The notes under the pieces were generated by a model that worked only from the letters and a program-made list of their open reading frames with translations, was not told the origin of the DNA and did no database searches. From positions 72,199 through 130,017 of IMG/VR virus record IMGVR_UViG_3300008110_010000: DNA of 57,819 nt; one strand, given 5' to 3'. Positions 17,854-41,796 of the stretch are shown here, one piece after another; the stretch's first letter is position 1; each line of letters starts with the position of its first letter. Both the position numbers and the translations under genes were made by a program. The stretch comes from a virus.

Positions 17854-20800
17854 ATGGCAAAGAAGTTAACTCTGGATCTATCCGTTTTTAAAAGTTCTGG
17901 TGTCTATACCTTAGAATTTGATGCTTCTGAAAATATTGTAGTAAATCCACAGACAGTAAGATTAGTGGTTGGATTTTCAAACAAGGGCCCATTCAACACT
18001 CCAGTTTATGTGCCAGACGTTCAGACAGCTATTAAAGTTTTCGGTGATATCGATAGAGCTTTAGAAAAAAAGGGATCGTTCTTCCATCGATCAATATTCA
18101 CATGCTTAAACAGCGGACCTGTTTTTGCCCTTAATCTTTTAAAGTTGAACAATTCAGTCACAACAAGTGACGATCCAGATGTTGCTAACGGAGCTGATGT
18201 AGCTAGATATAGAACTTTTTCTGTTGACACTGCAGAATCTAACGGAACTAACTCAACTGATGAGTACACGAAGGTAAATGCAAATCTTCCTAAGCAGGAT
18301 AAATTGGTTTCTTCTTATTATAACAAAGAAAAGTTTTGGTTCCCAGATCCAAACATGCTTCTTGCCACAATAGATGTAACTGAGCAATCTAAATTGTTCA
18401 GTCTGGTTAACTTAAGCCAAAACCCAGTAAGTGTTATTGTAAAGAAATCTTTGGATGCTAGACTTCCTATTAAAGGATTTGATATCACAGCTCAAGAATA
18501 TTTTGGAGCTAGCAATGTTCCAAACTTCATGAATCCTTATGATTACATTTCAGATTACTTTGTAGATGTTATCGTAGTAAGCGGAAATTGGACTAAATAT
18601 CAAGAACTTTCTTTAGATCCTATTTACTCCTCATATTTCACATCAAAGGGATTCGTAAAAGCTCAGATTGACAATTTCTTGGCTCTGAAAGAAGTAAACG
18701 TGGTTCTAACTGTAACTGGATGCTTGATTCCAGATTTTGTTGATCAAAACGGAATCACACAATACATTAAGACATTAATTAACAATCAAGTAGGACAAAC
18801 AGGAGTACTTTGTGCAGTAAATGAAGAGGCTTTAGATGATTTATCATCAGGAGATTACTCTTATATAGATTTAGTTGGCCATCACCTAACGGGTGCTTTA
18901 AATCCAGCTAATCCTGAAATCAACGAAATAGATTTCTTAAGTTATAGTTCTCCGCTAACTGCAGATTTTACATACACTCAAAATTCTAACACCATAACAG
19001 ATCTTGATAGCCCTTATTCAGATCTTATTGAAATCGGAACAACATTTGTTGATGCCTTCGGCTCACCTAGTGTTGATGGAGTATTTGAAGAAGATTTTGC
19101 AGCATATAGCTCTACAAATCTTGATTCTGGATTACCATATTTGCAAACAAATTTCTTAGGTGCAGATGCAACTAGCAGAAAAAACGCACTAAAAAATTTC
19201 TTGGCAGTTACTGCAACATCTCCAGCATCTAAATTCATTATTGGTAAAGTTACTGGAAATATTTCAGGGAATGTTGAAGCTAAAAAAGCTTTCTCTGCCA
19301 ATGACATAGTTAAATTAAAGGTTGAGGAAGTAAAAGAGGTAACAGTTTCTCCTGGAAACGTACAACTTAGAATTAAATGGTCACATCCTTTATTTAAAGC
19401 TGCTTCTCCTTTAGTTTCTCCTTATTATAGAACAAACATAGGAGGAAGCCACTATCAATTCTGTAAAGCAGATTACTTTGATAGATTTGATCCAATTGAA
19501 ACAAGTCCTGGACCTCTTGGAAGTCCAACTCCTATTAATCCACAGACATTAGGAAACTACACATACTTCGGTTATGCTGAATCTAAACTTTTCTTAGATC
19601 ATAAAAATGGATTAATTAGCGACGGAGACGTAATTTACAAAGCATATGACGGATCATCAGTTCAATATCTTAAATTTGAAAACTCTGTAGACAGAGACGG
19701 ATTTGAAACAGTTGAAATGAAATCCTACGTTGATGCTGATTTCACAACAGAAGAAGCAGCGGTTTCATTGGGTGTAAGTTATAAAACTTCCTCAACAGGA
19801 TCATCAGATACTGTAGACTCTGATGAAGTAAACATCGTATCAATTGCAGGAAACCTAAATCAATTTGTTAATGTAATCTCGGTTATTTCAACAAACCAGG
19901 TGGAAGTATCAGTTACTGAAGTAGCTGCAACATCTCTTAAAGTAGGTGATCTCCTAGTATCACAGGACGTTGATCAATTTGAAAACGCAGTTGGTAATAA
20001 ACTTAACAGATTAACAAGAATTATAGAATCTAAGAAAGTAGCAGTTCCTGGATCACCTGGAAACTACACAATTTACGTGAAAACGGATAGACCTATTCTT
20101 CTTTACTCCGGAGCTAACGCAAGAGTGAATAAGTTTAGACCGATACATCAATTCGTGGAAACCTACAAGATTTCATATCTTCCCGGCTTCCAGCTTAAAA
20201 CCTCTCACAAGCCTAACGGATCTGATGACAGATTAGACGAAATCTTGGACGTTTTAACCACAACCAATATTTCTAAAACACTTGCTGATAGAAATATTAT
20301 CACTTTCAGATATGTTGTTGATACGTTTGATGGACAAATTCAAACTAACTCCAAACATCAACTAGCTAAATTAGCTAAAGATAGACAGAAATGTCTTGCA
20401 ATTATTAATGCTCCTTCAATGGAGAAATTTAAGGATTCAATAGATCCAAGATTTACTGACGCACCTTCAGCAACAGAACCAGCTCCTTTACTAAGAGCAA
20501 AGTATATTGCAGAGGGCGGAAACTTAGAACTAAATCCTTCATTCAGATTCACTTTACCTGATGAAGATAGTGGAGCTAAATTCTGCGGTGTGTTTGGACC
20601 TTTCTTAACTATAAGAGAAAATGGTAAAAACTTTAATATTCCTCCAGCTGCACACGTAAGTAATAATTTCATTAGAAAATTTGTTACTGGAGAACCTTAT
20701 TCTATCGTAGCTGGTCAAAAAAGAGGGGTACTTTCAGGATCTAACTTAGTTGGACTTGAATATGATTTCTCTCAGGATGATAGAGATTTCTTAGAACCCT

Positions 20801-21225
20801 TTGGATTCAACCCAATCATCAGAAAGAGAAATATTGGATTGGTAATATTTGGTAACCAAACAGGATATCAAAGAACTAACTCAGCATTTAATAACTTGCA
20901 CGTTAGAGATCTTCTAATTACTCTTGAAGAAAGTGTTGAGGATATTCTTTCGAATTACGTATTTGATTTTAACGAAGATTCAATCAGACTTGAAATTAAA
21001 ACTATCGTAGACAATTACTTAAGCGGCGTTAAAAACGTTGGAGGTATCTATAACTACTTAACTATTATGGATTCTTCTAATAATACTCCTGCTATCATAG
21101 ATCAAAACTTAGGAATTATCGATATCATTCTCGAACCTGCTAGAGGTATTCATAAGTTTATCAACAGAGTAACTGTTACAAGAACTGGTGGTATTGCTTC
21201 TGGAGGTTTCATCCAATTCAGTTAA
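17854..21225 (+). CDS. 18: Tail sheath protein gp18, enlarged
   Basis: The N-terminus (SGVYTLEFDASE, then PQTVRLVVGFSNKGPFNTPVYV) and a VFALNLLKL strand are typical of contractile sheaths. The C-terminal domain has FCGVFGPFLTIREN, GPF-like and ANR-like helices, then LLITLEESVEDIL and a final beta strand used in the sheath handshake. At 1123 residues it is much longer than T4 gp18 (659). The extra material lies in the middle (about 330-780) and probably forms surface domains. Two tandem late boxes precede it, fitting a very abundant product. It is followed by the two tube genes. Confidence 0.9.
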   Translation: MAKKLTLDLSVFKSSGVYTLEFDASENIVVNPQTVRLVVGFSNKGPFNTPVYVPDVQTAIKVFGDIDRALEKKGSFFHRSIFTCLNSGPVFALNLLKLNNSVTTSDDPDVANGADVARYRTFSVDTAESNGTNSTDEYTKVNANLPKQDKLVSSYYNKEKFWFPDPNMLLATIDVTEQSKLFSLVNLSQNPVSVIVKKSLDARLPIKGFDITAQEYFGASNVPNFMNPYDYISDYFVDVIVVSGNWTKYQELSLDPIYSSYFTSKGFVKAQIDNFLALKEVNVVLTVTGCLIPDFVDQNGITQYIKTLINNQVGQTGVLCAVNEEALDDLSSGDYSYIDLVGHHLTGALNPANPEINEIDFLSYSSPLTADFTYTQNSNTITDLDSPYSDLIEIGTTFVDAFGSPSVDGVFEEDFAAYSSTNLDSGLPYLQTNFLGADATSRKNALKNFLAVTATSPASKFIIGKVTGNISGNVEAKKAFSANDIVKLKVEEVKEVTVSPGNVQLRIKWSHPLFKAASPLVSPYYRTNIGGSHYQFCKADYFDRFDPIETSPGPLGSPTPINPQTLGNYTYFGYAESKLFLDHKNGLISDGDVIYKAYDGSSVQYLKFENSVDRDGFETVEMKSYVDADFTTEEAAVSLGVSYKTSSTGSSDTVDSDEVNIVSIAGNLNQFVNVISVISTNQVEVSVTEVAATSLKVGDLLVSQDVDQFENAVGNKLNRLTRIIESKKVAVPGSPGNYTIYVKTDRPILLYSGANARVNKFRPIHQFVETYKISYLPGFQLKTSHKPNGSDDRLDEILDVLTTTNISKTLADRNIITFRYVVDTFDGQIQTNSKHQLAKLAKDRQKCLAIINAPSMEKFKDSIDPRFTDAPSATEPAPLLRAKYIAEGGNLELNPSFRFTLPDEDSGAKFCGVFGPFLTIRENGKNFNIPPAAHVSNNFIRKFVTGEPYSIVAGQKRGVLSGSNLVGLEYDFSQDDRDFLEPFGFNPIIRKRNIGLVIFGNQTGYQRTNSAFNNLHVRDLLITLEESVEDILSNYVFDFNEDSIRLEIKTIVDNYLSGVKNVGGIYNYLTIMDSSNNTPAIIDQNLGIIDIILEPARGIHKFINRVTVTRTGGIASGGFIQFS

Positions 21226-34506: not shown

Positions 34507-36783
34507 ATGGATAGAATTAACTTTGACAATAATCTAGACCAAATTAAAATGGAAAAGGCTAAGGCTGCTGCAAACAGTTTAAATGAAAGTTGGGCAGGAA
34601 CCAAGGCATTTGGACCAGGCACAGCTGGATCCTACGTTGATGGTCTACAAAAAGAGATTGCTCAAGCATCTGCTCAAGGAACTAAGATATCTAAACCAAC
34701 TTTCTCTGTTGGTGTTTTAGAAACTGCAATGGCTTTGAATAATACATCTTTCGTTGAATTACATGAAGCTAAGATTTTGGTTGAAAAATACATTCATCAT
34801 GCATCAATTAAAGGAGTTTCTGAAGCTTTCTTAATTGAATCTATGATTTCAGAATTGGAAAATTTTAGCTGGGAAAAACACGCTAAAAGCTCTTTAGTTA
34901 ATCTAAAGAAGATTTACGAAAAAAACAGAAAAGAAATCGAAGTTGCTAAGGCAATCGAAGATATTAATAGATCAGGAGGCAGAGACCTTTTCTCTTCTAT
35001 TGTTGAATCAATGAGAACTTGGTTAGACACAGAGAACAGGGTTTCTGAGAAACTGGTTAATGACCTTAAAAAATGGTCCTTCAATCCAACAGTTAGAAGC
35101 TTGGTTGAGAAGTTTACACAGCTTGAGGGAAGCAATGGTAAATTCTCTATCAATGTTAATTCTGAAAATTGCGAGGTAAAATCTATCATAGCGCCAAGTT
35201 TAGTTTTTGAGAACCATTCGGTTTTTGTTACTTCAGATAGATTCTTCAAGGCAACTCAAAGAGGCGTATCTGTTATGGAAAGAGCAGAAGCTTCTAAACT
35301 CCCTGGAAAATTCTTAAAAGCAGCTTTATCACTTAGCAATCCTGCTGTAAGAATTAACGAGAATGGTTTAGATATGTTCATCGGGAAAAATAAGCTTTCT
35401 GTAGTTTTTGAAAGTGACACCGAAACAAAGGCAGTATTCCTTAACGGAAAAAGAATTCCAGAAGACAGATTAGGATTTATCCTTTCTATGGAATTGAGAA
35501 ATTCGTTCCAATCTTCTGCAAGTATAGTAGAACAAGCTACTGAAGTAGTAAAAGCTGCTAATTTCCTTTCTGAAATTGATTTTGGTAAAAAAATCGTTTC
35601 TAAAATATACGAAGGGGTAGAAGCTAACGTATTTAGATTCGGACAAAAAGTTTATGTTCACAAAGTTAACCCAGCTATGAAGAAGAATGATTTATTCGAG
35701 GGTAACGGAACACAGGCAGTTAATATAGTTAAAGAATTTTTAGGATTTGATATTTCTGAATCAATGTCAGATATTCTAGAAAACGAAGATAGAGCTTTAG
35801 CTATCATGAGAAACGATAAGCAAGCTATTAAGAACAACATGTCTATTGTTGAAAGTGAAATGGCAAAAATTGCAAAAGCAATTCAGGATAATCCATCTCT
35901 TACTGGATCTCAAGAGATTAAAGAAGCTCAAGCAATGCTTCAAAAAGAATCTGAATCTCTAAAAGATAAATGGAACCAAATCAATGTTGAAATCGAGAGA
36001 TTTGAAAAGTATGCTAAAAAGGTTTCTTCAGTTAACGAAAGTGACGGATATCAAATAAACACAGACGTTAAGATCAGAAGAAACGGAGAAAAAGGTAAGG
36101 TTGTAGGGGTTAACGGTAATTCTAAAACATACACTGTTATGTTTGAAAACGGTAGAACGGGAGAATACTTCTTTAATGATGTAGTTGATATTTCAGACGA
36201 AATTGAAAACATTGAACTTAAACCAGTAAATGATCTAGGCGAAGAATCAATCGAAAACATAGAAATAGAAGGATCAGAAGCAAACGAAGGCCTAGATGCT
36301 GATATGAATTTAGCTGAGGCACCTTCTAAATCTGCTGGGGGATCTGCTAAAGATATTGATAATTTAGGAAATCATAACCTATCTGAAGCCCCTAATAAGC
36401 AAGCTAAATCTGCTAAAGATCCTAGAGGAGTAACTGGAAATCATGAATTAGCTTCCGCTCCAGAGGGAAAATCTGGAAAAGATAAAAAATTCATCGATAA
36501 AGAAGGTAATATGAACCTGGCAGAAGCTCCTGGCACAAGTGCAGGCGCAGCTCCTAAATTTATTGACAATTTGAAAAATCACAAACTTTCTGAATCACAA
36601 AAGAATTCGCATGTTGAAAAAGCACCTAAAGGAAAATCTGAAAAACCTAAAAAATTTGTAGAAGATTTAGATGATGCTGAATTAGCAGAAGCACCAGGTA
36701 ATCACAAGAAAAATGGCAAGAAAGATCATGAACCTCTTAACAGAGCAACCCTTGCAAAAGCACCTGCTTCAAAAAAAAAGTAA
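34507..36783 (+). CDS. Large putative prohead core / internal protein with LAEAP repeats
   Basis: 758 residues. The N-terminal two-thirds are helical, with a domain at 215-330 of strands (IIAPSLVFENHSVFVTS). A coiled coil lies at about 445-515 and a small barrel at 520-560 (KIRRNGEKGKVVGVN). The last 160 residues repeat a Lys-rich linker plus (N/H/A)-x-LAEAP or LSEAP about every 25-30 residues. L-x-E|A/S fits the T4 gp21 protease consensus, as do LNE|S near residue 25 and LIE|S near 105. Two tandem late boxes imply high expression. A processed scaffold or internal head protein is inferred. The stop lies beside an A9 slippery run (see next features). Confidence 0.55.
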   Translation: MDRINFDNNLDQIKMEKAKAAANSLNESWAGTKAFGPGTAGSYVDGLQKEIAQASAQGTKISKPTFSVGVLETAMALNNTSFVELHEAKILVEKYIHHASIKGVSEAFLIESMISELENFSWEKHAKSSLVNLKKIYEKNRKEIEVAKAIEDINRSGGRDLFSSIVESMRTWLDTENRVSEKLVNDLKKWSFNPTVRSLVEKFTQLEGSNGKFSINVNSENCEVKSIIAPSLVFENHSVFVTSDRFFKATQRGVSVMERAEASKLPGKFLKAALSLSNPAVRINENGLDMFIGKNKLSVVFESDTETKAVFLNGKRIPEDRLGFILSMELRNSFQSSASIVEQATEVVKAANFLSEIDFGKKIVSKIYEGVEANVFRFGQKVYVHKVNPAMKKNDLFEGNGTQAVNIVKEFLGFDISESMSDILENEDRALAIMRNDKQAIKNNMSIVESEMAKIAKAIQDNPSLTGSQEIKEAQAMLQKESESLKDKWNQINVEIERFEKYAKKVSSVNESDGYQINTDVKIRRNGEKGKVVGVNGNSKTYTVMFENGRTGEYFFNDVVDISDEIENIELKPVNDLGEESIENIEIEGSEANEGLDADMNLAEAPSKSAGGSAKDIDNLGNHNLSEAPNKQAKSAKDPRGVTGNHELASAPEGKSGKDKKFIDKEGNMNLAEAPGTSAGAAPKFIDNLKNHKLSESQKNSHVEKAPKGKSEKPKKFVEDLDDAELAEAPGNHKKNGKKDHEPLNRATLAKAPASKKK
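36771..36780 (+). promoter_or_regulatory. Candidate -1 frameshift site (A9 then G)
   Basis: The 0 frame reads TCA AAA AAA AAG TAA. A AAA AAG is the classical slippery heptamer used in dnaX. A -1 slip continues AAA GTA AAT into an 80-codon open frame. A 13-bp hairpin starts 25 bases downstream. A homopolymer miscount (A10 instead of A9) would have the same effect. Confidence 0.5.
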
Positions 36784-37022
36784 ATAGTATTTCTGAAAAT
36801 TACGAAAAGTTCGTTTCTGAGGGTATCGGAAACGAACTTTTTCTTTTCCAGGAAGACCTACAAGACATTTTAGGTAAATTAAAAGAATTGGAAACAACTA
36901 GTCATGCTAGTAGTAAGATAGGATTGAGTACTATTGAAGACTCAATAAAAAACCTAGAAGCCCTAAAAAAAGATGTTGAAGGCCAGATAGGCAAACTAGA
37001 AAATAATTTCCCACAAAACTAA
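36780..37022 (+). CDS. Hidden C-terminal extension frame, coiled coil, no start codon
   Basis: 80 sense codons in the -1 frame after the core protein, ending in TAA at 37020-37022, which overlaps the ATG of the next gene (TAATG). Sequence is protein-like: NYEKFVSEGIGNELFLFQED, then helical LQDILGKLKELE and NLEALKKDVEGQIGKLENN. There is no ATG or GTG; ATT at 36789 is the only weak option near its beginning. Best explained as an extension of the 758-residue protein by frameshifting at 36771 (giving about 837 residues) or by a one-base sequencing error in the A run. Confidence 0.6.
   Translation, partial: VNSISENYEKFVSEGIGNELFLFQEDLQDILGKLKELETTSHASSKIGLSTIEDSIKNLEALKKDVEGQIGKLENNFPQN
36805..36841 (+). 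promoter_or_regulatory. 13-bp hairpin downstream of the slippery run
   Basis: AAAAGTTCGTTTC (36805-36817) pairs perfectly with GAAACGAACTTTT (36829-36841), with an 11-base loop. It could stimulate frameshifting, or act as a terminator since T-rich sequence follows. It lies inside the -1 frame coding segment. Confidence 0.6.
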
Positions 37023-37378
37023 TGGAGTATGTTAAAAACAAAGAGCTTAAAAGGGCATTGCTAGAATCCAAAGAAAAAGGAAGATTGACAGCAGAAACGG
37101 TAAAGATGTTTACACTTATTGTTAATGGTCTTTCTAAAACTAAATCTTATCGAGATATCGAAGATAAAGAGGATTGTATTGCTTTCGGAATGGAGGATCT
37201 AATTAAATATTGGGACAGATTCGATCCCAATAAATCAGACAACCCGTTCGCATTTATCTCACAGATAGCTAAAAATGGTATGCAAAAAGGATGGAAAAAA
37301 ATACATTCTACAAGATCTATAAAAACAATATCTTTTTCTAGGTTAACTAGAGATGATAATCAGAACTTCAATGTCTAA
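37022..37378 (+). CDS. 55: Late sigma factor, gp55 type
   Basis: 118 residues (T4 gp55 is 185). The segment DLIKYWDRFDPNKSDNPFAFISQIAKNGMQ (about 59-88) matches the sigma region 2 pattern W-K-DP-KS-NPFAYF-QI of gp55-like late sigma factors. It is followed by a basic helix (KGWKKIHSTRSIK). It should recognise the TATATA late box with host core polymerase. Overlaps the upstream frame by TAATG and the next gene's start (ATG 37371). Confidence 0.8.
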   Translation: MEYVKNKELKRALLESKEKGRLTAETVKMFTLIVNGLSKTKSYRDIEDKEDCIAFGMEDLIKYWDRFDPNKSDNPFAFISQIAKNGMQKGWKKIHSTRSIKTISFSRLTRDDNQNFNV

Positions 37379-37865: not shown

Positions 37866-38437
37866 TGGATTTTAAAAGGGAAATTAGAGAGGCAATAGAA
37901 AAGGCTGGATCTCCTGGAAAATTGACAGAGGAGAGTTTTTTACATTATACCAATAATTATTCAGTTTTAAAAAAATCTGAATCTATAAAGAATTTAATTC
38001 AGGGGAAAATATTTACTTTTTACTACGATTCCCCAAAGAGAAAGGACCAGGAATTTGTTAATAAAAGACCCGTCATATTTTATGAAGGATCTGAGATTAG
38101 CCCAGAAAGATCCATTATTAAAGGAGTAGATTTGGTCCTATTAACACCAAGAGACCGAACTAATTTTTTTATTAGGCTCTATACTATATTTGGTAAAATC
38201 ATGGAGCAAAATGAAAAGAGAGAGATTTCATCCCAAATGCCTCTCAGATTCGATTCTGAGATTTTAGAAACTTTAATGGGAGGAGTTAAGTATAATCATG
38301 CATACCGTGGTTACAAGTTGGAAAAGATAAAGGGTCTTTCCGAAATACCAAGCGATGAATGGAAGTATTTAGTGTATCTAGATACTAAGTCTTTAGAGGG
38401 GGCTATTTTGAATGATATATACAATAAATTCGGATAA
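37865..38437 (+). CDS. Conserved virion-type protein between gp4 and portal
   Basis: 190 residues. The middle, IFTFYYDSPKRKDQEFVNKRPVIFYEG then GVDLVLLTPRDRTNFFIRLY, has the F-Y-P-K...P-V...G-L-L-P-R layout of unnamed proteins near gp4 or the portal in large T4-like phages. T4 has gene 53 next to gene 4, but similarity to gp53 is not evident. Overlaps the portal ATG by one base. Probably a head or connector component. Confidence 0.55.
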   Translation: MDFKREIREAIEKAGSPGKLTEESFLHYTNNYSVLKKSESIKNLIQGKIFTFYYDSPKRKDQEFVNKRPVIFYEGSEISPERSIIKGVDLVLLTPRDRTNFFIRLYTIFGKIMEQNEKREISSQMPLRFDSEILETLMGGVKYNHAYRGYKLEKIKGLSEIPSDEWKYLVYLDTKSLEGAILNDIYNKFG

Positions 38438-40080
38438 TGGCAGGATTTTTAGAAAACAACAGAAATAATCCATTTTTTAGCAACGTTCTAAGTGCTCTTA
38501 GAAAAATAGGGTCATTTGGGATGAGCTATGGGGATATGGTTGTTAAAAACTCCCAGGCCGTTGGTACTACTGAAGCGATTTTCACGCAAAAGGGTGGAAT
38601 TCTGGACGAAAATTTCCTTTATACCCTCAGAAAAGCTGACACTACTGCGAAACAGTATATTGCTTATTTCGATAAAGATTACAAGAACAAAAAGACCTAT
38701 TTAAGAAATTTTGCTCTTAACCCCGAAATTGAATTTATTCTCGATACAGTTTGTGACGAAGCGATAGTTTATGATGATAAAAACTTTTTCTCCTATTTTG
38801 TTAGTACAGACATTCATGGGATTGGGGAGAAAAAAGAAGCTAAAATTCAAGAAAGGTATAAAGAGATCTATAATTTATTTGGATTTAATCAGGACATTTC
38901 AGGATGGCATTTTTTTAGAAACTTCCTCATTGATGGTATTCTGGCATTTGAAATTATTTTTGACACAAAGGGAAAAAATATTATTGGGTTTAAGGAATTA
39001 GACCCAGCATCTCTTCTTCCGTCTGTCGAAAAACAGATGGATGGATCTTTTGTTGAGTGCTGGATACAATATCCAGATAACCCTGCTCTAACCAGAAAAT
39101 TATATGATTCTCAGATCATTTATATTTCCTATGCAAAGGGAAATACAATGACGAGGGTAAGCTATATCGAAAGATTAATTAGATCGTTTAATCTTTTGAG
39201 AATCATGGAACACACCAGGGTGATCTGGAATGTAATGAATTCTTCCTATAGAATGACCATGACAGTTCCGATCGGAACTAAATCACCACAAAAGGCCAAG
39301 CAAAGTCTTGCAGAATTAATGAGTATCTATAAAGAAGATATCAGATTAGATTCGGATTCTGGTGAACTTTTCGTAAACGGTAGACCTAACATTCAGTTCT
39401 TCAAGAATTATTTAATGCCTTCAACCCCGAACGGAACACCAGACATTGCTCCATTAGCAGGATCCGGGGACGCAACACCTTTTAGCGATCTTAAAGCTTT
39501 AGCTTATTTTGCTGATAAATTAAAACTTGATTCTAAAATTCCATATTCGAGATTTGATCGTGAAGATAGAGGAACACAAGGAACTTTTAGTGGTAACGCA
39601 GAAGGATTGGATCAAGAAGAAATAAGATTCTTTAAATTTATAACCAGATTAAGATCTATTTTCCAGGACATTCTTGTAAAACCCCTTTGGATCCAATTTT
39701 GTTTGGATTATCCGGAGCATAAGAAGGATTTTATGGTTAAGAGCCAATTTGGTTTGGATTATGTGAAAGATAATTCTTTTGCTGAAATAAGATACATGGA
39801 GATTCTAAATGCTAGAAAAGATCAGGTAACAAAAATTTCAGGATTGACTGATTCTGAAGGTAAACCTTATTTTTCATTAAGATATGTGCTCGACAAGTAC
39901 TTAGGTATGACTGACGATGACAGGGTAGCTAACGAGAAAGCCAAGGAAAGAGATGCTGAGAAAAAGAAGAAAGCCGCTGAAGAGGAAGCTAAAAAAGCAG
40001 CAGAGACGGCTCCAGCGGCAGAAGAAGGAGCAGGAACAGAAGGAGCAGGAACAGAAGGAGGAGACGAATTTAAACTTTAA
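38437..40080 (+). CDS. 20: Portal protein gp20, copy 1
   Basis: 547 residues (T4 gp20 is 524). Portal-type landmarks: YIAYFDKDYKNK, EIEFILDTVCDEAIVYDDKN, GFKELDPASLLP, MEHTRVIWNVMNSSYRM, and SPQKAKQSL with MSIYKEDIRLDSDSGEL. This is the gp20 order (clip, crown, wing and stem region). The tail is a Lys/Ala/Glu-rich helix. It is followed after 3 bases by a full-length paralogue. It would form the dodecameric vertex used for packaging and tail attachment. Confidence 0.93.
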   Translation: MAGFLENNRNNPFFSNVLSALRKIGSFGMSYGDMVVKNSQAVGTTEAIFTQKGGILDENFLYTLRKADTTAKQYIAYFDKDYKNKKTYLRNFALNPEIEFILDTVCDEAIVYDDKNFFSYFVSTDIHGIGEKKEAKIQERYKEIYNLFGFNQDISGWHFFRNFLIDGILAFEIIFDTKGKNIIGFKELDPASLLPSVEKQMDGSFVECWIQYPDNPALTRKLYDSQIIYISYAKGNTMTRVSYIERLIRSFNLLRIMEHTRVIWNVMNSSYRMTMTVPIGTKSPQKAKQSLAELMSIYKEDIRLDSDSGELFVNGRPNIQFFKNYLMPSTPNGTPDIAPLAGSGDATPFSDLKALAYFADKLKLDSKIPYSRFDREDRGTQGTFSGNAEGLDQEEIRFFKFITRLRSIFQDILVKPLWIQFCLDYPEHKKDFMVKSQFGLDYVKDNSFAEIRYMEILNARKDQVTKISGLTDSEGKPYFSLRYVLDKYLGMTDDDRVANEKAKERDAEKKKKAAEEEAKKAAETAPAAEEGAGTEGAGTEGGDEFKL

Positions 40081-40083
40081 TAA

Positions 40084-41796
40084 ATGGCAGGATTTATAGA
40101 TGATTTTTCACAAAGGAATCCTAATATAGGAAAGATCCTTAAGAGTGTGAGCAAGATAGGAAGCTTCGGAATGGAGTATAAGGATCTTGTTGTGAAAAAT
40201 TCACAGGCCATTGGTGTTTCCGAAGCAATGATGAGGGAAAGAATGGGTCTTACCGATTCAGATGAAGATTTCATTTTTAGTTTGGCTTCTCAAGACACTA
40301 GTAACAGAAAGTATATTGCTTACTTTGATAAAGACTATCCTTTTAAGAGAGAGTTTTTACGCAGGTTTGCTTTAAATGCAGAAATAGAATGGATCCTTGA
40401 TATTCTTGCTGATGAAGCTATAGTTTACGATGATAGAAATTTTTGTTGTAGTCTATCTCTTGTTAATATGGATCTCAAAGAAGATGTTGTTGATTCATTA
40501 AGAGATAACTTTAGAAAAATGTATATCTCCCATGGATTTAATAATGGGATATCCGCTTGGCAATATTTTAGACAGTTTTTAATTGACGGATTTTTATCTT
40601 TCGAAATTGTTTATTCTGATGATGGAAGGCAAATTGTAGGATTTAAAGAATTGGATCCAACATCATTGACCCCGACAACAGAAAGAAACCAGTCGGGGGA
40701 GACGATTCCTATCTGGATTCAATATTATGGAGATAGTACTAGAGAAAGAAGGCTTTACGATTCTCAAGTCATTTATATTTCATTTGCCAAAGGAAATAGC
40801 GCTAGTAGAACTAGTTACTGTGAAAGATTGATACGTTCACATAATCTTTTAAAGATTATGGAGCATACCAGAATTATCTGGAATGTGATGAATGCCTCTT
40901 TCAGAATTAAGATGACAATTCCAGTTGGATCTAGATCTCCACAAAAAGCAAAAGAGACTTTAGGTGAATTGATGACCATGTATAAAGAGGATATCAAATT
41001 AAACACAGAATCAGGCGAACTGAGTGTTAACGGAAGACCCAATTTACAGTTTTATAAAAACTATCTTTTCCCAGTTCAAGGTGGGGAATCTCCTAAGATT
41101 GAGACCATCAATTCTGCTGGACCAAATCTTAATATCATAGATGCTGTTGTATACTTTTTCAATAAGCTTAAGGCAGACTCTAAAATACCTTTTAACAGAT
41201 TTGCTGCTAGATCAGGCGGAACAGTTGGAACTTACAAGATAGGTGCTGAATCTGCTGAAAGAGATGAAATCAGATACAATAAGTTCATTAATAGAATCAG
41301 ATCGATCTATCAAGAGATCATGCTTAAACCTCTTTGGATCCAAATGACGTTAGATCATCCAGAATTGAAAAATGACGCAGTTTTCAGATCTCAGCTAGGT
41401 ATCAAATGGAACTCTGATAATCAATTTGGAGAATCCAAAGAGATTGAACAGCTGATTAAAAAAATAGATTTTATAGCAGGACTTTCAGAAATTAAGGAAA
41501 AGAAAGGCGAGGAAGAAAATCCTTATTTTAGTCAAGACTTCTTAATAGATAAATTCCTCGGATTAACCAACGAGGATCGTAGGGTAAATGAAATCTATAA
41601 GAAGAAAGACGAAGAAGAAAATGCTGAAATTAAGGTTGAAGGGGACGGCGGAGCAGGAGGGGGAGCCTCTATAGAACCTCCTGCAGCAGATACCACAGAA
41701 TCAACTCCGGCGGATGAACCAGAAGCACCCGCAGCAGAGGAGCCGGCAGCTACCCCTGAACCCCCAGCAGAGCCAGCAGCAGCTGAAGCTCCATAA
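40084..41796 (+). CDS. 20: Portal protein gp20 paralogue, copy 2
   Basis: 570 residues, colinear with copy 1: KIGSFGMEYKDLVVKNSQA, YIAYFDKDYPFKREF, DEAIVYDDRNF, GFKELDPTSLTP, MEHTRIIWNVMNASFRI, SPQKAKETL and the matching SGEL-VNGRPN segment. Divergence concentrates in loops (for example after NYLFPV) and in the C-terminal tail, which is Glu/Pro/Ala-rich rather than Lys-rich. Both copies look intact, with no frameshift or lost motif. Two full portals side by side are not typical of T4-like genomes. Confidence 0.93.
   Translation: MAGFIDDFSQRNPNIGKILKSVSKIGSFGMEYKDLVVKNSQAIGVSEAMMRERMGLTDSDEDFIFSLASQDTSNRKYIAYFDKDYPFKREFLRRFALNAEIEWILDILADEAIVYDDRNFCCSLSLVNMDLKEDVVDSLRDNFRKMYISHGFNNGISAWQYFRQFLIDGFLSFEIVYSDDGRQIVGFKELDPTSLTPTTERNQSGETIPIWIQYYGDSTRERRLYDSQVIYISFAKGNSASRTSYCERLIRSHNLLKIMEHTRIIWNVMNASFRIKMTIPVGSRSPQKAKETLGELMTMYKEDIKLNTESGELSVNGRPNLQFYKNYLFPVQGGESPKIETINSAGPNLNIIDAVVYFFNKLKADSKIPFNRFAARSGGTVGTYKIGAESAERDEIRYNKFINRIRSIYQEIMLKPLWIQMTLDHPELKNDAVFRSQLGIKWNSDNQFGESKEIEQLIKKIDFIAGLSEIKEKKGEEENPYFSQDFLIDKFLGLTNEDRRVNEIYKKKDEEENAEIKVEGDGGAGGGASIEPPAADTTESTPADEPEAPAAEEPAATPEPPAEPAAAEAP

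Follow-up and report, generated by a model that had tools for sequence, protein, structure and literature searches.

A conserved −1-frame extension behind an A9 run in a phage head gene, with a terminator-like hairpin inside it

The stretch of viral DNA analyzed here (57,819 nt, hereafter the window) belongs to a virus record of 219 kb and carries a gene for a 758-aa head/core protein (34507–36783, + strand), recognized from its open reading frame, neighbor genes, motifs, and fold relatives. It is followed by a T4 gp55-like late sigma factor gene (37022–37378, + strand; phrog_234, E 6e-17, and Sigma70_r2), and then by genes for a gp4-type head closure nuclease, a DNA end protector, and two portal proteins. 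Further downstream in the same genome lie a Peptidase_S77 prohead protease, with a score over the cut-off, and a gp23-type capsid gene. The portal genes (38437–40080 and 40084–41796) are an adjacent, diverged T4-type pair within one genome, both assigned to phrog_213. Elsewhere in the window, a very large tail sheath protein of 1123 aa is encoded at 17854–21225 (best stretch with phrog_34521, residues 731–1111), and 50144–50851 matches the alpha-2,3-sialyltransferase family (phrog_4603, E 1.7e-11).

Neither the 758-aa protein nor the C-terminal extension described below matches a PHROGs or Pfam family at E 0.01; a PDB sequence search for a known family returned insignificant matches only, and GTDB genome contigs hold no relative of the 758-aa protein. 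Its predicted fold does match proteins of PTm1 and pT24, two Tenacibaculum phages, and phages of Prevotella, Chryseobacterium, and Tenacibaculum have genes resembling the sigma and portal genes; on these grounds, the hosts of this virus family are probably Bacteroidota.

Two features of the 758-aa protein bear on its possible processing. Motifs of the type [LI]xE[AGS] occur 14 times, where 2.4 are expected, and the C-terminal repeat region (36310–36780, + strand) carries LAEAP-like motifs at residues 602, 625, 648, 671, 694, 726, and 749, mostly 23 residues apart, as candidate prohead-protease sites. The motif variants there are LAEAP, LSEAP, LASAP, and LAKAP, and their count and spacing differ among relatives; in the structure model, the region is of low confidence and probably disordered. 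The repeats, together with LxE-type sites far above expectation, suggest that the protein is a candidate substrate of the prohead protease. Of the features of a T4 prohead core protein or prohead-protease substrate, the clustered motifs and a genome-encoded protease are both present, while homology to a T4 core protein family is not found in PHROGs or Pfam. The Peptidase_S77 prohead protease itself (L090 1302–2543; G000:C1 about 128801–130042) is extended beyond its protease domain by a long array of YLAEN-type repeats; these repeats contain masked bases and are possibly a fused scaffold.

In the 0 frame, the gene ends TCA AAA AAA AAG TAA, so that an A9 run (36771–36779, + strand) has a stop codon directly behind the slippage site (36781–36783, + strand). 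The −1 frame continues for 80 codons and a TAA (36780–37022, + strand), and this TAA (37020–37022) overlaps the ATG of the sigma gene as TAATG. Within the window, the extension frame contains no ATG or GTG codon, with TTG found only internally; near-cognate ATT and GTA codons stand at its start, and an ORF search with standard start codons omits it from its listing. A preliminary description had drawn attention to this gene end, the open 80-codon frame, the missing ATG and GTG codons, and the TAATG overlap, all of which are borne out by the sequence. Such openness is rarely met by chance: when the 240 nt are shuffled at constant base composition, 0.05% of the shuffles stay open.

Relatives were sought in two viral-contig searches, which gave 21 and 65 loci, and in a search with the extension itself, which gave 75 contigs, 71 of them including the junction. 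The run is A9 in 67 of these 71 and A10 in the other 4; the remaining 4 of the 75 begin inside the extension or at its edge, where the junction is not visible. Among the aligned relatives, 40 distinct sequences show the A run together with the broken frame, the extension, and the hairpin. In these, the 0 frame ends with A9 followed by G (or C), or with A10, and then TAA or TAG, as in all relatives with the extension, while the −1 frame runs on without a stop for 80–86 codons. By this sequence comparison, the extension system is common to a large family of uncultured viruses.

Homopolymers are common sites of error, and the preliminary description had allowed that the assembly might lack one A, a true run of A10 making the protein a single longer ORF. 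Comparison of the 40 distinct homologous sequences leaves an artefact of this kind practically no chance. The A9 run and frame break are repeated in all of them, from many metagenomes, and the window and L002–L004 are four separate contigs with identical sequence here, each with A9. Where a G to A change does produce A10 (the L051 type), the frame relation is unchanged and the break persists, and the 0-frame stop is retained where the adjacent base has changed from G to C. Since every extension-bearing relative keeps A9, or A10 where G has become A, in the same frame relation, the missing-A alternative is refuted.

The extension also behaves as protein-coding sequence. In the alignment of 40 sequences, its product has 13 invariant columns; the median Ka/Ks is 0.32 and lower among the closest pairs, and the other frames contain at least six stops each. 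Judged by these measures, the extension is conserved coding sequence under purifying selection, always entered via the A9/A10 run. AlphaFold places helices at residues 16–44 and 49–75, with pLDDT mostly about 90 in the helices, and the extension is accordingly predicted to fold as a two-helix hairpin. A fold search with it yielded nothing significant, and a search of a phage collection left it unmatched.

It is conceivable that the 80 codons form a separate small gene, translated from a nonstandard start or by re-initiation after the 0-frame stop: the −1 ORF starts right at that stop, where re-initiation is possible, and the near-cognate ATT and GTA codons are found there. We regard this as very improbable. 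No ATG, GTG, or TTG is conserved near the start of the extension, and any other arrangement of the junction is seen in 0 of 71 contigs. Nor would a separate gene account for the selection on all nine A's, described below, or for the joint absence of A9 and an intact extension in one relative, L049. The version with an ATG start, which the preliminary description had named as the outcome that would overturn its reading, occurs in none of the 75 extension-encoding contigs and is rejected; fusion in frame is equally absent from the 75. At the other end, most relatives join the extension to the sigma gene through an overlap of stop and start codons, either ATGA or TAATG.

How the −1 frame is entered is best approached through the run itself. 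In full-length genes, the base preceding AAA AAA AAG is invariably A, within the codons TCA, ACA, GCA, and one AGA, although the position is mostly degenerate, being free to vary in most of these codons. For comparison, across 35 sequences not one of the gene's 68 fourfold columns is invariant, and invariant Lys columns elsewhere in the gene have AAA in 51–86% of rows. The last 0-frame codon is AAG in most members, AAC in L035 and L041, and AAA in L051. Junction conservation is thus beyond chance, as expected of a slippery sequence, and on this evidence from alignment the whole A9 run is under selection, beyond the heptamer. A fixed A ahead of AAA AAA AAG favors a homopolymer of nine, because a ribosomal heptamer alone would not need that fixation. 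Within the window (1–57819), this A9 is the only run of at least nine A's or T's, where a first-order model expects about 8, as if slippage-prone runs were avoided elsewhere.

Transcriptional slippage calls for a homopolymer of about nine or more A's or T's, and A9 or A10 is found in every member. Bacterial RNA polymerase slips efficiently at nine A's or T's (PMC5009743), and frameshifting in reporters reached 63% at A11, 40% at A9, and 10% at A7 (PMC3711429). The main rival to slippage by RNA polymerase is programmed −1 ribosomal frameshifting at A_AAA_AAA or A_AAA_AAG, helped by the stop behind the site, with the mRNA itself remaining A9. A perfect slippery heptamer is present in all members, mostly with AAG as the last codon, and the 0-frame stop follows directly in 40 of 40, a stop that polymerase slippage would not require but that could help a ribosome to slip; some dnaX genes share this architecture (PMC5009743). 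Several observations weigh on the other side: the stem lies 18–29 nt away, at a distance varying by clade, when 5–9 nt is usual; an SD-like motif within 20 nt upstream occurs in 3 of 40 sequences only and is absent from the window; selection extends to all nine A's, more than the heptamer; and two sequence types, L035 and L041, replace AAG with AAC. Of the hallmarks of a dnaX-type site, the in-frame A_AAA_AAG is present in most members, a stimulator at 5–9 nt in none of the 40, and an upstream SD-like motif in few. A tRNA search of the window, made for a Lys tRNA set, found none. Ribosomal shifting is in our estimate a substantial possibility that stops short of being probable, and the balance favors RNA polymerase slippage.

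The third element of the locus is a terminator-like RNA hairpin (36805–36841, + strand; dG −20.0) within the −1 ORF, with a main stem of 13 bp that starts 25 nt past the A run and 21 nt past the 0-frame stop. The preliminary description had placed a perfect 13-bp hairpin here and had remarked on its unusually long spacing. Both points hold: the stem starts 18–29 nt downstream of the run in all 40 sequences, and the distance differs between clades, whereas the usual stimulator spacing for −1 frameshifting is 5–9 nt (PMC5009743). Behind the stem comes a U-rich tail (36842–36849, + strand), which reads TCTTTTCC in the window and TTTTRTTTT in clade B. Across the family, dG ranges from −18 to −29 and the next 10 nt contain 4–8 U; all members of clade B have 7–8, and in part of clade A (L038) the tail is weak.

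The paired positions of the hairpin covary across the family, at 0.432 against at most 0.10 in slid controls, with double changes in 8 of 14 pairs. Codon choice tells a similar story. In the clade B stem, a Leu codon is CTC in 25 of 25 sequences, though CTC makes up about 1% of Leu codons, and a Phe codon of the clade B U-tail is TTT in 25 of 25, against 0 of 19 invariant Phe columns of the gene that are all TTT. Read from these substitution patterns, the hairpin and U-rich tail are under RNA-level selection.

The family thus has the stable stem-loop and following U-rich tract that mark an intrinsic terminator; a simple consensus terminator scan of the window does not list this hairpin. Hairpins with T-rich tails also lie 21–22 nt past the stops of four other window genes. 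In relatives that lack both A9 and an intact extension (L039, L049, and L081), this site is occupied by an ordinary terminator, and Chryseobacterium phage MA9V-2, likewise without A9 or extension, has a plain terminator ahead of sigma, after the gene that occupies the corresponding position. Given the tail, the 21-nt offset shared with other gene ends, and the counterparts in relatives without A9, the hairpin looks like the gene's own intrinsic terminator, overprinted by the extension. That it might instead be an unusual long-range frameshift stimulator is improbable. Its conservation and covariation in all A9 members would suit such a role, and stimulators acting from a distance have precedents such as phage T7 gene 10 (PMC5009743); but a hairpin of the same kind sits at the same place in relatives without a frameshift site, the U-tail codons are fixed as TTT, and the offset from the stop matches that of other gene ends in the genome.

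The frameshift reading of the preliminary description therefore survives in part. The comparison supports its conserved C-terminal extension in the −1 frame, with slippage on the A run as the way in, and since the conserved run is A9 and not merely A_AAA_AAG, that reading points at least equally to RNA polymerase slippage. The dnaX-like reading of the hairpin is not supported: the hairpin is real, but with a stem 18–29 nt away it is probably no dnaX-type stimulator, SD-like motifs are confined to 3 of 40 sequences, and the geometry, the tail, and the counterparts in A9-less relatives are those of a terminator.

Natural losses add a further line of evidence. In a tree of the upstream protein, the extension-less L039/L081 and L049 fall between two extension-bearing clades; the outgroup is the jumbo phage L023 on a very long branch, so we claim only this placement between the clades. 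Since the two clades carry homologous extensions, at least one loss must have occurred. In L049 (6302–6501), what is left of the extension is decayed and lies behind an intact terminator; A9 is lost too, making L049 a natural loss variant. The local alignment of this remnant scores 62, compared with a shuffled maximum of 57, and 0 of 200 dinucleotide shuffles score as high. No remnant is detectable in L039/L081, and a more distant jumbo-phage homologue, LR756500, is without A9 and without extension.

We can now outline how the locus may work. Through a frame change at A9, one head gene would yield two proteins: an abundant product of 758 aa and, as a minority component of the head, one of about 837 aa that ends in a helical hairpin of 80 residues. 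The slip would be made mainly by RNA polymerase, adding one A to some transcripts, as suggested by the retention of all nine A's and by a hairpin too distant to stimulate a ribosome in the customary manner. The hairpin would be the intrinsic terminator of the 758-aa gene, overprinted by the extension, and ribosomes in the −1 frame would cross this putative terminator and arrive at the overlapping late sigma start, a path that would link production of the extended protein to late-sigma expression. Finally, the 0-frame tail would serve as a prohead-protease substrate via its repeated LAEAP-type motifs, in which case the extension would act while the head is being assembled and might be released as it matures. 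As a whole, this is the explanation we consider likely.

Because the extension runs through the putative terminator, shifted translation could also suppress termination, and the sequence arrangement is such that the frame shift may gate late-sigma expression. In a stronger version, slipped transcripts (or ribosomes) would lead to translation through the hairpin, which could then not fold behind RNA polymerase, and would bring ribosomes onto the sigma start. We consider gated antitermination of this kind rather unlikely; were it true, the slip rate at A9 would determine what fraction of the head protein is extended as well as the output of late sigma and the downstream head genes.

Frameshift-added C-terminal domains are already known on phage coat and tail proteins. 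In the literature searched, there is no report of a C-terminal frame change on a T4-type head core gene, nor of such an extension overprinted on its gene's terminator or ending on a late sigma start. The family recurs across many metagenome contigs, and its dozens of homologues and natural loss variants provide a natural case for separating RNA polymerase slippage from ribosomal frameshifting, as well as a direct way to test slippage as a control on termination and on the expression of late genes.

Comparison with known systems helps to place these features. In E. coli dnaX, −1 ribosomal frameshifting at A_AAA_AAG truncates the protein. The phage gene has the A_AAA_AAG slippery sequence too; in contrast to E. 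coli dnaX, it lacks an SD-like motif in 37 of 40 sequences, its stem is 18–29 nt off, its run is A9, and the shift lengthens the protein. The dnaX genes of Thermus thermophilus and Chlorobi come closer, with frame-changing runs of A7–A10 that include two-ORF forms with A9 (PMC3711429; PMC5009743), although they encode a DNA polymerase subunit and no terminator is described in the extension, unlike the overprinted terminator-like hairpin found here. Among structural proteins, T7/T3 gene 10, Lactobacillus phage A2, and Listeria phage PSA produce a minority coat or tail protein with an extra C-terminal domain, through a −1 or +1 frame (PMC5009743). The likeness is a minority structural protein with an added C-terminal domain, predicted in our case; the differences are a core-type head protein, T4-like phages of probable Bacteroidota hosts, and a helical hairpin in place of an Ig-like domain, and no sequence relation was found. 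The T4 prohead core and internal proteins are similar in adjoining late sigma, head closure, and portal genes and in having many LxE-type candidate sites for a gp21-like protease, and they differ in that the 758-aa protein is without a PHROGs or Pfam family match. The nearest mechanistic parallel, drawn by analogy and with no homology claimed, is Shigella spa13/spa32, where a slippage run gives a C-terminal extension that overlaps the following gene at its start, with a strong effect of slippage on the expression of that following gene (PMC5009743). Here, too, an extension behind a putative slippage run ends on the start of the next gene; but spa13/spa32 is part of a secretion operon, whereas the present case is a phage head gene whose extension contains a terminator-like hairpin and whose downstream neighbor encodes a sigma factor.
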